From a virus: a stretch of DNA of 55,667 bases. A program made the position numbers and the translations under genes. The notes below the pieces were generated by a model. The model did no database searches. It saw only the letters and a program-made list of their open reading frames with translations, and was not told where the DNA came from. Shown here piece by piece: positions 4,059-45,159 of the stretch (position 1 is the first letter of the stretch; the number at the start of each line of letters is the position of its first letter). The stretch covers positions 1-55,667 of IMG/VR virus record IMGVR_UViG_3300023171_000315; one strand, written 5' to 3'.

Positions 4059-4607
4059 TTATAATTTTTTAAATCCTAAATATTGAATATTGTTTAAATG
4101 CATATCGTTAGTGCCTAGTACATCATCAGCATTTGCCGTTTTGAAGTAAAGAGATCCAGCATATCTAGTGTCTGATCTAAAAGTTATCCAAGAACCTTCC
4201 CCGTCCAATGAGTACTCGAAATAAATTGTTGTAGCATCAAATCTGATTCGTCTTGGTGTTTCTCTTGGAACTCCTTCTCCCGAAGTTTGTCCGTCATTAT
4301 CAATATGGCTTTCAAGCACAATAAAGTCACCTGAGTTATTTCTCTTTATTGAGTACTTTGCCTGATAAAAATAAACGAGGTTGGTGCTGTCGATGTCTAG
4401 TATGATGGGCAAATCCCCTTGTCCCTTTATCCAACCGATCGCCCCAGCTTCTAAGTATAACCTTGATCTACCCCTTGCCGTGCCAACAACATTATTTCCA
4501 GAGGCTACCATATCTCCTTCAAGTTCTAGCCAGTCAGATGGGATTAGGTTAGACGCTGAACTTAATACTGGTTTAGTCGCCAGAATGCCCATACCTGCGG
4601 TAATCAT
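4059..4607 (-). CDS. Phage structural protein, lectin-like, C-terminal fibre component
   Basis: 182 aa when started at the ATG whose ATGA overlaps the stop of the upstream gene at 4604-4607. A longer in-frame start exists but would run through the neighbour in another frame. Beta-rich sequence with aromatic residues (RIRFDATTIYFEYSLDGEGSWITF), reminiscent of concanavalin-like carbohydrate-binding folds. Probably part of the tail tip or fibre. No family was recognised with confidence. Confidence 0.55.
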   Translation of the reverse strand: MITAGMGILATKPVLSSASNLIPSDWLELEGDMVASGNNVVGTARGRSRLYLEAGAIGWIKGQGDLPIILDIDSTNLVYFYQAKYSIKRNNSGDFIVLESHIDNDGQTSGEGVPRETPRRIRFDATTIYFEYSLDGEGSWITFRSDTRYAGSLYFKTANADDVLGTNDMHLNNIQYLGFKKL

Positions 4608-28105: not shown

Positions 28106-28140
28106 AAAAAAAGTACGCTGAGGAACCACTCTCAACGTAC
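28106..28140 (-). terminator. Strong intrinsic terminator of the ncRNA locus
   Basis: Minus-strand GTACGTTGAG and CTCAGCGTAC arms around AGTGGTTC, followed by TTTTTTT. It ends the transcript that runs from the motif-A promoter through about 0.8 kb with no credible protein gene. Confidence 0.85.
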
Positions 28141-28905
28141 TAACCTAAACCAACTAAACTGCGCCTTACACGCTTTACCTTTGCCTCATCCTATCGGATT
28201 GCCCAGCGAATGGGGACTTTTAATTCGGTACGGGGCTCCCCTGCTACTAGTTATCAGATTTCGTATGTAATTCGACTGTCCCTCTTTATTAAGCTTCTCA
28301 AACAGTGTCGAAGCAGCTACGTATTTAGCGCGTTATCCTTTCCGAATCGTACTCAGCCTCACTCATGATTATGGCCTCCCTTACATACTAATTTCATCAA
28401 ACCAAAGAACCCCTATCTTGATGCATTTCTTTCGCCATGCATTGGCATTTGGTGCGGACTATTGGCACCCGAATTACCCTTACTCTAGTTAGGGCTTCAA
28501 TACATCGTTTCTAAATGTACTCGTCCAGTCCATGTGAACAGACCCCGACTTGAACGGGGATGATACCTTTGTCTGAGTGTTCTTTTAGATTAATTAATTC
28601 TGAAGGGATATCTCCCAACATTTTCATCAATCGCCTTTACGTAGATCCCAAGCTTCTCTGGCTGTCGCATTACGCTTTGAATAGGAGGTATCACGTGTAT
28701 AAACTCTAGCGTCTACCAATTCCGCCATCTGTTCAATAATAACAAACCTTCTACCTCTGAACCATACTTGCGCTGTGTAACTATGTCGGGCATCTTAACC
28801 TGATTCGGCAGGTTTGTTAACGCCAAAGCCACGACTTGTTTCAGATCGTGGCGACTTTCCCATGTTGCAGGGCTTGATTCAAATAACGTTGAGCGATTTG
28901 CTTAT
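28113..28905 (-). ncRNA. Large structured RNA (GOLLD/ROOL-like candidate)
   Basis: About 800-nt minus-strand locus between portal and DGR target 3. It has no convincing protein gene, a promoter-like element upstream and an intrinsic terminator downstream. Strong pairing is visible: TAACAAACCT/AGGTTTGTTA closing a multibranch domain, GCCACGA/TCGTGGC, CCTG/CAGG, GGTGC/GCACC, ATGCAT/ATGCAT, CGA-CTGT/ACAG-TCG, and a long-range GTATGTAA (28381-28388) with TTACATAC (28263-28270). It contains a tRNA-Leu-like skeleton. GOLLD and ROOL are large phage RNAs of similar size, often near tRNAs; identity is not shown here. Confidence 0.65.
28535..28734 (-). ncRNA. tRNA-Leu-like element with a 117-nt insert and no clear anticodon arm
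   Basis: Perfect 7-bp acceptor (GAACAGA 28734-28728 with TCTGTTC 28542-28536) with discriminator A, D arm GCG-GAATTGGTAGA-CGC, and T arm CCCCG-TTCAAGT-CGGGG. Next to the T arm TGATACCT (28693-28686) pairs with AGGTATCA (28568-28561), like a class II variable arm whose loop is 117 nt. Only 15 nt separate the D arm from this helix and they do not form a normal anticodon hairpin, so it cannot decode as written. No CCA encoded. Confidence 0.65.
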
Positions 28906-28921
28906 ACAATAATACAAACAA

Positions 28922-28946
28922 TATTCAATATATGCAATATTGCATA
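28922..28946. promoter_or_regulatory. Motif A: 25-bp dyad element upstream of the large RNA
   Basis: Plus-strand TATTCAATATATGCA plus ATATTGCATA; contains the palindrome ATGCAATATTGCAT. On the minus strand it supplies a TTG followed after 20 nt by TATTATTG, a near match to TAnnTTTG, so transcription would start near 28900. Confidence 0.7.
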
Positions 28947-28977
28947 ATAATTATTTTCACTTTGGCTCAAATGGCCA

Positions 28978-30420
28978 CTAATTGGTTATTTTCGGATCAG
29001 TTATTTTAGGAGCCAAAGCAGCACGAGCTGCTTCCTCTACCTTTATCTTTTCGTATTCTTCTTCTGGATTATCAGTAAAAGCAAGTTTGGCTATAGCCGT
29101 TTCCTTGCTCATTAAACCAGCGCCTACTAGAGTAGCTATATTCTGGTATTCCTCAGTTAAGTTGCGTGGTAATTTAATTTTAAATTTAGGCTTAATAACC
29201 ATGCTAATGGAAGGTTTGACGCTTACATTAATTACAGATAAGGCTGGCTTAAGAAAATTAAAGTGTCTTTGCCATTCCATACCCAAATCACCCTGTTGAT
29301 CTGATTCAGCTTGATTTGTAGCTGGCATAAACATCATCTCAATAGCTACACCAGGTATGTTTGAAGATCCGCTAATTTGCTCCATTGAAATTTGTGGAGT
29401 ATTAGTCTCATCATATATATCACGTCTTAAATTCTTTCGTTCTTCCGTAGCTGATGCTTGAGATCCTTTTGCTTCAACATATTTAAGATCTCCACCATTT
29501 TCTATTTCAAATGATTTTCGAGTGTTCTTCGTTCCACCACCAGACGCTGCTTCAATTTTACCGAATGAGGCCAATATAGGAAATGCACTGATTTGGTTTT
29601 CGTCTGCAGTATCTGAGTCTACCTCTTCCACCCGATCTATTTTAGGCAACACATCTGCGTAAATAGTTCTTTTTGTACCGTGAAAAACAAAGTTAGCCTT
29701 ATCATAAGCTATGGTCACGAAGGTAGGAGCTTCGTCTTTACCTACTGTGTATGTAATAATTCTGTCGGACAAATGCAGATCCAACTTTTCAATGTCATCT
29801 TCACCCACTTTAATGGAATATTTACGGGCGCAAGTAATCATATCATTATAACGATTGTAGATAGGGATAGCCAAGCTGCCGTCTTCAGGACTAAAAACAG
29901 AAAGTCTCATTTTAAACTTACTATTTGGCGATATATCTCCCCAAAAACCCTCCTCTGCTGGTACACTATACCACACTGCCATACATTGAGTGTAAGTCTT
30001 TTTTAGTCTGTCAATTTTTTGACAAACATAATCGAGCTTATTGTCCTCCCACGTCTTATCCATCATAGCGGCCATAGTTTCGTCACTAGCAAAGCCATCT
30101 CTAATTCGATAGTCCCTATCGATTCCTCCTGATAGGGCCATCCTAACACTCCAGTCAATAATTATTTTCTGTGTATTTGATGGAATACGATGGACGTCTT
30201 TTTTTTCGGTACGATAAGTCATGTTGCCTGCTGCATCGTAAACCCCTGTAGCTACATCAACATCGCGCCATGGTCGATAAGACTGATCTTTAACAACCTT
30301 ATGGTTTTCAGGTTCAATATCAAAAGCATACTCTGGAATTGTCGGCGCAAGTGCAACAATCTTTTCAACTAACTTTTTTGGTTCGCCCGCTAATAACTCT
30401 TGTAGTTCCTCTATTTCCAT
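28978..30420 (-). CDS. Phage portal protein
   Basis: 480 aa from the ATG at 30420 (MEIEELQELL); a longer frame starts 27 bp earlier. SPP1-like portal features: TEKKDVHRIPSNTQKIIIDW near the start, a central stem/wing (KMRLSVFSPEDGSLAIPIYN), and a helical acidic C-terminus (AIAKLAFTDNPEEEYEKI). Forms the dodecameric ring at the DNA-entry vertex. Downstream of the large terminase with one small gene between. Its stop lies 32 bp from motif A. Confidence 0.85.
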   Translation of the reverse strand: MEIEELQELLAGEPKKLVEKIVALAPTIPEYAFDIEPENHKVVKDQSYRPWRDVDVATGVYDAAGNMTYRTEKKDVHRIPSNTQKIIIDWSVRMALSGGIDRDYRIRDGFASDETMAAMMDKTWEDNKLDYVCQKIDRLKKTYTQCMAVWYSVPAEEGFWGDISPNSKFKMRLSVFSPEDGSLAIPIYNRYNDMITCARKYSIKVGEDDIEKLDLHLSDRIITYTVGKDEAPTFVTIAYDKANFVFHGTKRTIYADVLPKIDRVEEVDSDTADENQISAFPILASFGKIEAASGGGTKNTRKSFEIENGGDLKYVEAKGSQASATEERKNLRRDIYDETNTPQISMEQISGSSNIPGVAIEMMFMPATNQAESDQQGDLGMEWQRHFNFLKPALSVINVSVKPSISMVIKPKFKIKLPRNLTEEYQNIATLVGAGLMSKETAIAKLAFTDNPEEEYEKIKVEEAARAALAPKITDPKITN

Positions 30421-30488
30421 TGTACACAAAAATAAATGTGTTGGCAATGGCTAACGGTTTGCTTTGCTTACTTGCTTGTGTTGGTAAG

Positions 30489-44075: not shown

Positions 44076-45032
44076 CTATTCTTTTGGAGGGATAAGCTTT
44101 TTAATTAGATGTTTGGTATTAGCGTGTTTACACCAACCCAGATAAGATGCAAGTGAACTTCGGTTTATTCCTTTCGCTACCTTTCTGGCAAATTCACGTT
44201 TGATGGTTGGCCTTAATAATACATGAGTGTGGTAATGCTTATAGCCTACAAAGTCAACACTGCGAGAGGCTACAGGAAACACTTGCCAGTTTTCCTTAAC
44301 TGTTAAGTTTAATCGATTAGCTAGGTATGCCGTAATGCCATTAAGCGCCTTATGCAAGTAATTTTTATCATGATGCAGTATTACGATATCATCAGCGTAC
44401 CTGAAATAATATTTAACGGCCTTTTGCTCTTTGATCCAGTGATCGAAGTAGGCCAAATAAAAGTTGGCAAAGTATTGGCTTAAATAATTTCCGATCGGTA
44501 AACCTGGTGCACTGTCAATGATACCATCAAGAAGGGCAAGCAGCTCAGTATCTTTTATTTTCTTGCGCAATAAAACTTTAAGTATTGCATGATCGACATT
44601 CGGATAGAACTTCTTGATATCAAGTTTTAAGCAATAAGTAGTACCGACAACATCGCAAAGTGCCTCACGTAAAGCTCTGCTAGCTGCATGAATACCTTTG
44701 CCTTTAATGCAACTGTAAGTGTCCGTTGTAAATACAGATACAAACATTGTCTCTAGCAAATTCATGATAGCATGGTGAACAATTCGATCACGATATGGAA
44801 GGATCGATATTACGCGCTCTTTACGTTCGAAAATAGTCCGTGTCCTATAGGTGCCCGTTTTATAAGTACCCGTAATTAAATCACGATAGATATCGGCAAT
44901 ATTTTGATCGAAGTTCTTATCAAATTCAATAATCCCCGACTGTTTTGCTTTCCCCTTGCGTGCAAGCTTATCAGCTAAAAGCAAGTTGTCTATGCTGCAG
45001 ATGTTCTCAAATAAATTACCGATTCTTTTCAT
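44076..45032 (-). CDS. Diversity-generating retroelement reverse transcriptase
   Basis: 318 aa. DGR hallmark IGNYLSQ (180-186) in RT motif 4 in place of the QGxxxSP of group II introns, catalytic LDIKKFY with D138, and YADD (212-215). C-terminus KRSLASYLGWCKHANTK is typical of the thumb. It copies the template RNA with errors at adenines and the cDNA replaces variable repeats. Downstream of the template in one minus-strand operon with two targets. No maturase or endonuclease domain. Confidence 0.95.
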   Translation of the reverse strand: MKRIGNLFENICSIDNLLLADKLARKGKAKQSGIIEFDKNFDQNIADIYRDLITGTYKTGTYRTRTIFERKERVISILPYRDRIVHHAIMNLLETMFVSVFTTDTYSCIKGKGIHAASRALREALCDVVGTTYCLKLDIKKFYPNVDHAILKVLLRKKIKDTELLALLDGIIDSAPGLPIGNYLSQYFANFYLAYFDHWIKEQKAVKYYFRYADDIVILHHDKNYLHKALNGITAYLANRLNLTVKENWQVFPVASRSVDFVGYKHYHTHVLLRPTIKREFARKVAKGINRSSLASYLGWCKHANTKHLIKKLIPPKE

Positions 45033-45159
45033 ATTATTTACAGGCCGTTAAGCCTTTGCTTTGTAGGTCGTTTTCACTTTCGTTACCAACGCCCTTATAA
45101 GTAATTGTTATTTTTTGCCAAGAGGCAAGGTCTGTGCTGACAATATTTTTAGCAAATTT

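Follow-up and report, generated by a model that had tools for sequence, protein, structure and literature searches.

Several RNAs adopt part of the transfer RNA (tRNA) fold. Plant-virus tRNA-like structures, which are located at genome 3′ ends, and the Bacillus tRNA-Other have non-standard tRNA shapes, and some of these RNAs are aminoacylated. Transfer-messenger RNA (tmRNA) uses the upper half of a tRNA without an anticodon arm, and a helix closes it just before the T arm. The YrlA family is part of the Rfam library. In the passages concerned, PMC3985003 describes tmRNA with its tRNA-like upper half, RNase P and alanine; PMC12286853 states that the GOLLD linker sometimes contains tRNAs; PMC7790460 presents YrlA, a bacterial Y RNA, as a noncoding RNA with a tRNA-like domain; and PMC7609411 describes allo-tRNAs as tRNAs of non-standard shape that keep the anticodon. 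Large phage RNAs with tRNAs are already known, and so are tRNA-like domains in tmRNA and YrlA. To our knowledge, there is no leucine-type member with a hypervariable arm among the plant-virus structures, tRNA-Other or the allo-tRNAs, and literature searches of open-licence papers returned no description of a leucine-type, anticodon-less, hypervariable phage RNA family. Here we analyzed a tRNA-Leu-like element on the minus strand (28734-28534) of a virus record of 55,667 bases (IMG/VR IMGVR_UViG_3300023171_000315), the whole of which is called the window below. The element belongs to a set of 12 distinct elements from Bacteroidota-type phages.

All parts of the element lie on the minus strand. 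It is 201 nucleotides (nt) long (28534-28734), with its 5′ end at 28734 and its 3′ end formed by A73 and C. The acceptor stem has 7 base pairs (bp): its 5′ strand GAACAGA (28728-28734) forms 7 of 7 Watson-Crick pairs with TCTGTTC (28536-28542), and A73 and C follow at 28534-28535, completing a 3′ strand at 28534-28542. The D arm GCG-GAATTGGTAGA-CGC (28709-28725), a 3-bp stem with a tRNA-Leu D loop, has the same sequence as the D arm of Pedobacter tRNA-Leu(caa). The T arm, CCCCG-TTCAAGT-CGGGG, is at 28543-28559. Between the D and T arms are 149 nt. They begin with the 15-nt linker TAGAGTTTATACACG (28694-28708), which occupies the place of the anticodon arm and has no stem of its own. An 8-bp helix formed by TGATACCT (28686-28693) and AGGTATCA (28561-28568) then closes a variable insert of 117 nt (28569-28685), and U48 (T48 in the DNA) and the T stem follow the helix. 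A sequence-only reading of this DNA had proposed a tRNA-Leu skeleton with a 117-nt insert and no anticodon arm at 28535-28734. The proposal was borne out, its coordinates being right to within one base with the minus strand implicit, and both the sequence and RNAfold agree that the 15 nt form no stem. Of the parts of a decoding tRNA-Leu, the 7-bp acceptor, the D arm, the T arm and A73 are present in the window element, and ARAGORN and RNAfold found in it no anticodon arm that has a 7-nt loop and presents a leucine anticodon.

A structural search for tRNAs required an acceptor of 7 bp, a D stem of 3 bp with GG in its loop and a T stem of 5 bp with a T loop, with 35-230 nt in between. This descriptor had a single match in the window, exactly this element, and none in 100 dinucleotide shuffles. 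RNAfold predicted the acceptor, the 8-bp helix and the T arm. The folding-energy z-scores were -1.77 for the element and -1.17 for the 816-nt RNA; because the element reaches only -1.77 versus shuffles, free energy by itself is weak evidence. The 8-bp helix alone had moderate support (p 0.014 versus shuffled middles). ARAGORN, which the sequence-only reading had suggested as a check, gave a split result: its standard mode reported neither a tRNA nor a tmRNA gene here, and its intron mode called c28534-28734 as 'tRNA-Ile(tat)' with a 106-nt intron. Rfam did not report the element either; the search of the window, extended to E 10, gave no match to tmRNA, GOLLD, ROOL, YrlA, or group I or group II introns. 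One open frame is present in the insert. A coding or tag function of the insert was rejected, since its frame had no Pfam match, no sign of a tag and no conservation as a frame. A covariance model (R1) built from family members, including the window sequence, scored the window element at 84 bits, the members at 76-110 bits and host tRNA-Leu at 32-53 bits. R1 separates the family from ordinary tRNA-Leu only loosely, and the member scores are biased because the members were used to build it.

With class II tRNA-Leu the element shares the D arm, the elbow contacts, A15-U48, A20a, A73, the T arm and the 7-bp acceptor, and its gene end A73-C is that of host tRNA-Leu genes. In contrast to tRNA-Leu, it has no anticodon arm, and across the family 40-149 nt of variable sequence replace the anticodon and variable arms. 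The upper half without an anticodon arm and the helix before the T arm resemble tmRNA, and a real tmRNA is encoded in the same region of locus L021 (874-1203, minus strand; Rfam 72.5 bits; tag VRQIEAKVVSMAKSRVGSSVSLAA), after the portal gene, where relatives carry tRNAs. However, the element has a leucine-type D arm with a 3-bp stem and no G3-U70 (acceptor pair 3 is A-U), and the window has neither an Rfam tmRNA match nor a conserved tag frame. GOLLD and ROOL are likewise large structured noncoding phage RNAs near tRNAs, but no Rfam match to them was found in the window or the searched relatives, and the conserved 3′ module is a different one. YrlA is comparable as a noncoding RNA containing a tRNA-like domain, but the window lacks an Rfam YrlA match. 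No Ro/TROVE domain was found in the 19 window proteins scanned with Pfam (out of 97 open reading frames (ORFs) of at least 80 amino acids).

The family was assembled by pattern and similarity searches. A pattern fixing only the 5′ acceptor strand GA[AG]CA[AG][AC] and a leucine-type D arm matched 11 stretches of viral contigs, 8 of them distinct. None of these 8 was a normal tRNA-Leu, though an intact tRNA-Leu with such an acceptor would match the pattern. In all 8, 40-136 nt without a leucine anticodon arm were followed by a T arm and an acceptor 3′ strand that matches the 5′ one. BLAST with one of these elements led to two isolated phages: Bacteroides phage BS-TP2 (L065), whose element is also in contig MT840030 (L067), and Riemerella phage vB_RanS_PJN03 (L066). 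Each has an unannotated element with a different acceptor but the same architecture. Together with the window and L035, and after removal of L057, L062 and L063 (same element as L056) and L067 (same as L065), this gave the 12 distinct elements. A second element in L058 (6721-6836) was excluded, as it is without G18G19. The contexts are noncoding gaps of varied position, such as after the portal gene (L056), beside a helicase gene (L054) or before a NinG-like gene (BS-TP2). The middle between the D and T arms spans 40-149 nt across the 12, and standard ARAGORN misses 11 of them. A pattern derived from the T arms of the window element and L035 matched 0 stretches. A pattern of D arm, long gap and T arm matched 0 of 295 genomes of the class; it would fit only 5 of the 12 family elements, so this result shows rarity in genomes and no more.

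The 12 elements were aligned with MAFFT (alignment A2), in which the acceptor, D and T stems comprise 15 pairs and 180 pair cells. Standard pairs occupied 97.2% of the cells, and 10 of the 15 pairs had changed on both sides. On each of five measures, all 500 shuffles fell short of the observed value, and when partners were shifted by 1-3 columns, 37-46% of cells paired. Only 5 cells were unpaired: 3 lie in the D stem of L066, where MAFFT left the longer D loop unaligned, and 2 in L056, one acceptor and one T-stem mismatch, the only such mismatches in all 12. Four unrelated acceptors pair fully: GAACAGA/TCTGTTC, GAGCAAC/GTTGTTC (with one G-U), GGTATCG/CGATACC and GAAGTGG/CCACTTC. The 52-nt upper half had a mean identity of 84% over 66 sequence pairs (92% among the 9 elements of GA[AG]CAGA type). 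The middle was near random, with a mean z of 0.73 over shuffled sequences and 3 of 66 pairs above 3, and was essentially unalignable. The fold of this tRNA-Leu-like family is well supported. Homologues lacking acceptor, D and T pairing would have contradicted the tRNA mimic proposed in the sequence-only reading; the pairing observed instead favors a mimic, with compensatory changes in the three arms of 12 elements and the anticodon region replaced.

The conserved positions are those of leucine identity. In Escherichia coli, leucylation persists when tRNA-Leu lacks its anticodon and variable arms, and it requires A73, A15-U48, G18G19, A20a and contacts between the D and T loops (PMC9976931). 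The window element carries the determinants of E. coli leucyl-tRNA synthetase (LeuRS), namely A73, A15-U48, G18G19, A20a, U54-A58, U55 and C56. A15, G18G19, A20a, U48, A73 and U54/U55/C56/A58 were present in 12 of 12 elements and in 4 of 4 host tRNA-Leu; U48, A73 and the T-loop positions were free in the search pattern. A15 together with U48 was found in none of 7 other phage tRNAs, although position 15 was unreadable to the script in 2 of the 7. Synthetase binding, RNase P/Z processing and stability had been proposed as functions and may still be inferred for the element; to the synthetase suggestion, the retained positions add a match to published E. coli LeuRS determinants at the sequence level. 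Since the family keeps the positions read by LeuRS and drops the dispensable parts, the elements look like leucine-type mimics with tRNA-like maturation that are probably charged, with host LeuRS probably attaching leucine. We give a probability of about 0.5 to the reading that these phages encode a family of non-decoding, leucine-type tRNA-like RNAs which undergo tRNA-like processing, CCA addition and charging by LeuRS and display a variable arm.

The element is located within a noncoding RNA that has a conserved 3′ module and a terminator. In the window, the portal gene (28978-30447, minus strand; phrog_64, SPP1_portal) is accompanied by terminase genes and a candidate CI-like repressor gene. 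Downstream of the portal gene on the minus strand, about 880 nt contain no same-strand ORF of at least 80 amino acids, and the tRNA-like element lies midway. The conserved 5′ part of the RNA (28819-28991, minus strand), with a promoter-like AT-rich stretch, is 70% identical to L019 over 180 nt. The 3′ module (28107-28531, minus strand) is kept in 9 loci and has an insertion of about 230 nt in this phage. In the 9 loci the order is GGACTRGACGAGTNCATTTANAAACG, then the invariant motif GGGTGCCAATAGTCCGCACC (28451-28470, minus strand, in the window), then the terminator. As read by eye, the loop AGTCC of the motif could pair with GGACT at the module start to form a pseudoknot, and a hairpin followed by a U run (28106-28141, minus strand) has the form of an intrinsic terminator. 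Five relatives were obtained with a helicase gene query and more with the invariant 20-nt motif and a second pattern in genomes; the 3′ module was present in 3 of 399 Sphingobacteriaceae-group genomes by pattern scan. BLAST of the whole region in phages returned just short, tRNA-Leu-like or chance matches, and the portal protein query in viral contigs gave 20 stretches, none of them confirmed. RNAalifold on the 3′ module yielded 19 pairs, just 1 of which had changed on both sides; its high conservation and many gaps make the module unsuited to a covariation test.

The slot directly 5′ of the 3′ module holds a leucine-type tRNA-like element in the window and in L035. An intact tRNA-Pro directly precedes the shared module in L019 (same phage as L029), and L025 has only a T arm plus the 3′ half of an acceptor. 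A short hairpin occupies the slot in L024 and L027; read by eye, it could be a small stem resembling an acceptor, with G3-U70 (L024 was folded). The slot is filled by HNH endonuclease genes in L026 (3642-4319) and L034 (828-1499), and nothing recognizable was found there in L028. Relatives with another RNA type after the portal gene carry tRNA-Met, tRNA-Ala, tRNA-Gln, tRNA-Trp, tmRNA or tRNA-like fragments. Because slot contents differ among relatives, the window element is one of several occupants of a tRNA slot within a large phage RNA. For the same reason, an alignment across related prophages, as proposed in the sequence-only reading, is largely inapplicable; the homologues occur mainly in more distant phages.

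Other tRNA-like elements were noticed in passing. Vibrio phages PhiImVa-1, BUCT194 and vB_VpaP-MS02 contain odd elements of 115-116 nt (L071:311-426, L073:211-326, L074:212-326), with a suppressor tRNA annotation in PhiImVa-1; in Streptomyces phage Yara (L069, about 461-528) a CCGG-GACG-CCGG hairpin replaces the anticodon arm; and Salmonella phage S5 has a further odd element (L075, about 240-327). In all of these, the acceptor and T arms are intact and an ordinary anticodon arm is absent. About 1.6 kilobases of noncoding sequence in L058 (5820-7470, minus strand) contain a series of tRNA-like elements, the majority of which lack a normal anticodon arm, and a tRNA-Phe with the anticodon AAA. 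Many tRNAs or tRNA-like elements are preceded, a few nt upstream, by a hairpin that recurs and contains a sequence resembling GGAAAGAC (L020, L022, L053, L065 (BS-TP2) and others). In L023 (about 4395-4425, minus strand), 25 nt are identical to the 3′ end of host tRNA-Leu(tag), resembling an attachment site or a captured tRNA fragment. Elsewhere in the window (44076-45132, minus strand), a reverse transcriptase gene (RVT_1, phrog_1423) directly follows an Rfam RT-17 RNA (45055-45132), and together they look like a retron-type cassette.

Several explanations other than a charged mimic were weighed. The elements could act as processing punctuation only, that is, as RNase P/RNase Z substrates with an end-protecting fold that free or stabilize parts of the large RNA and carry no amino acid. 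This is possible, if somewhat unlikely: the acceptor and T arm are the part common to all elements, intact tRNAs fill the same slot in relatives (L019), and related RNAs contain tRNA-like pieces of non-leucine type whose acceptor stems are preserved (L020, L024/L027, L050, L058), but this leaves unexplained why 12 of 12 elements retain A15-U48 and the D-loop positions of leucine type, though elbow constraints might account for these. It is improbable that the element is a decoy or competitor for a host defense enzyme acting on tRNAs, tRNA-shaped and without the cleavage site. The hypervariable middle would suit a decoy, and phage tRNAs that evade anticodon nucleases have been described (PMC10264068, where a term search returned nothing on missing arms), but an anticodon nuclease would be expected to bind via the anticodon arm.

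The sequence-only reading had named an intron and decay as alternatives, and both are disfavored. That the elements are decoding tRNA-Leu genes with a removable intron appears very improbable. Intron-mode ARAGORN does assign the window element a structure, a GAG...CTC pairing that is possible in both L035 and the window could be what is left of an anticodon stem, and L035, called as tRNA-Leu(taa) with a 28-nt intron, is the sole element with a restored leucine anticodon and the best case for splicing. But the 8 intron calls among the 12 elements gave 8 isotypes (Ile in the window, Leu in L035, Tyr in L054, Gly in L055, Cys in L060, Phe in L061, Lys in L064 and Ser in L065), a ninth call was intron-less (L056, Asn), and L058, L059 and L066 gave none. 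Because an intron in tRNA-Leu should restore a leucine anticodon upon splicing, and only 1 of the 8 forced calls does, splicing is unlikely. Moreover, the would-be exon nucleotides beside the D arm show no conservation, Rfam gave no match to a group I or group II intron family, and the exons fail to restore an anticodon stem; the inserts are also short compared with self-splicing introns. Decay to a tRNA-Leu pseudogene is quite improbable too. Truncated pieces seem to exist nearby, with only the 3′ half of a tRNA-Leu in L023 and a neighbor with a broken D loop in L058, and ARAGORN is blind to the window element. In contrast, all 12 elements retain the acceptor, T stem, A73 and U48, with compensatory changes, even though the middle has turned over. 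It is mainly this contrast between a conserved upper half and a replaced middle that disfavors decay, 8 of the 12 having been selected on the acceptor 5′ strand and D arm.

Other points weigh against the charged leucine-type mimic. The same selection means that in those 8 elements the acceptor 5′ strand and D arm are conserved by construction, so that the independent test is confined to the region 3′ of the D arm; the remaining members apart from the window were likewise found through sequence similarity. Descent from different tRNA-Leu genes could account for part of the covariation in the acceptor. A helix ending at most 3 nt from the T stem is a trend across the family (combined p 0.005) and falls below p 0.05 individually in only 3 of 12 elements (window, L058 and L065). 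In L056 a 7-nt anticodon loop is possible (ARAGORN tRNA-Asn gtt), and L035 fits tRNA-Leu(taa) with a 28-nt insert. The LeuRS determinants were established in E. coli rather than in Bacteroidota. Finally, the non-leucine tRNA-like elements in these and other phages favor a function that is broader than leucine, for instance in processing, and they speak no less against leucylation than for it.

If the leucine-type mimic is right, the element would be transcribed as part of the larger noncoding RNA. Host RNase P and RNase Z would then cut its two ends, as they would those of the tRNAs that occupy this slot in relatives. The element keeps the acceptor/T-arm stack and the elbow of D loop and T loop, with a hypervariable arm in place of the anticodon and variable arms. 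CCA would then be added and leucine attached by host LeuRS, and the product would be a stable aminoacylated RNA that displays its variable arm and is kept out of decoding. Tentatively, and with less confidence, we suggest that Bacteroidota phages may encode aminoacylatable non-decoding RNAs that the host leucylates, that stay out of decoding through the loss of the anticodon arm, and whose cargo is a rapidly changing RNA arm, a phage counterpart of the plant-virus tRNA-like structures.

The usual answers to the long-standing question of why phages carry tRNAs are decoding and the evasion of tRNA-cutting defenses. Codon supply cannot explain this family, because the parts that LeuRS reportedly reads are kept and the part that reads codons is dropped. 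The same design in other phages suggests that host tRNA enzymes are engaged without decoding. Such RNAs are probably under-annotated, because standard ARAGORN misses 11 of 12. If the proposal is true, then together with the similar anticodon-less elements of Vibrio, Streptomyces and Salmonella phages it would point to a widespread, unannotated class of phage RNAs. The family also connects tRNA mimicry with the large noncoding phage RNAs of unknown function.
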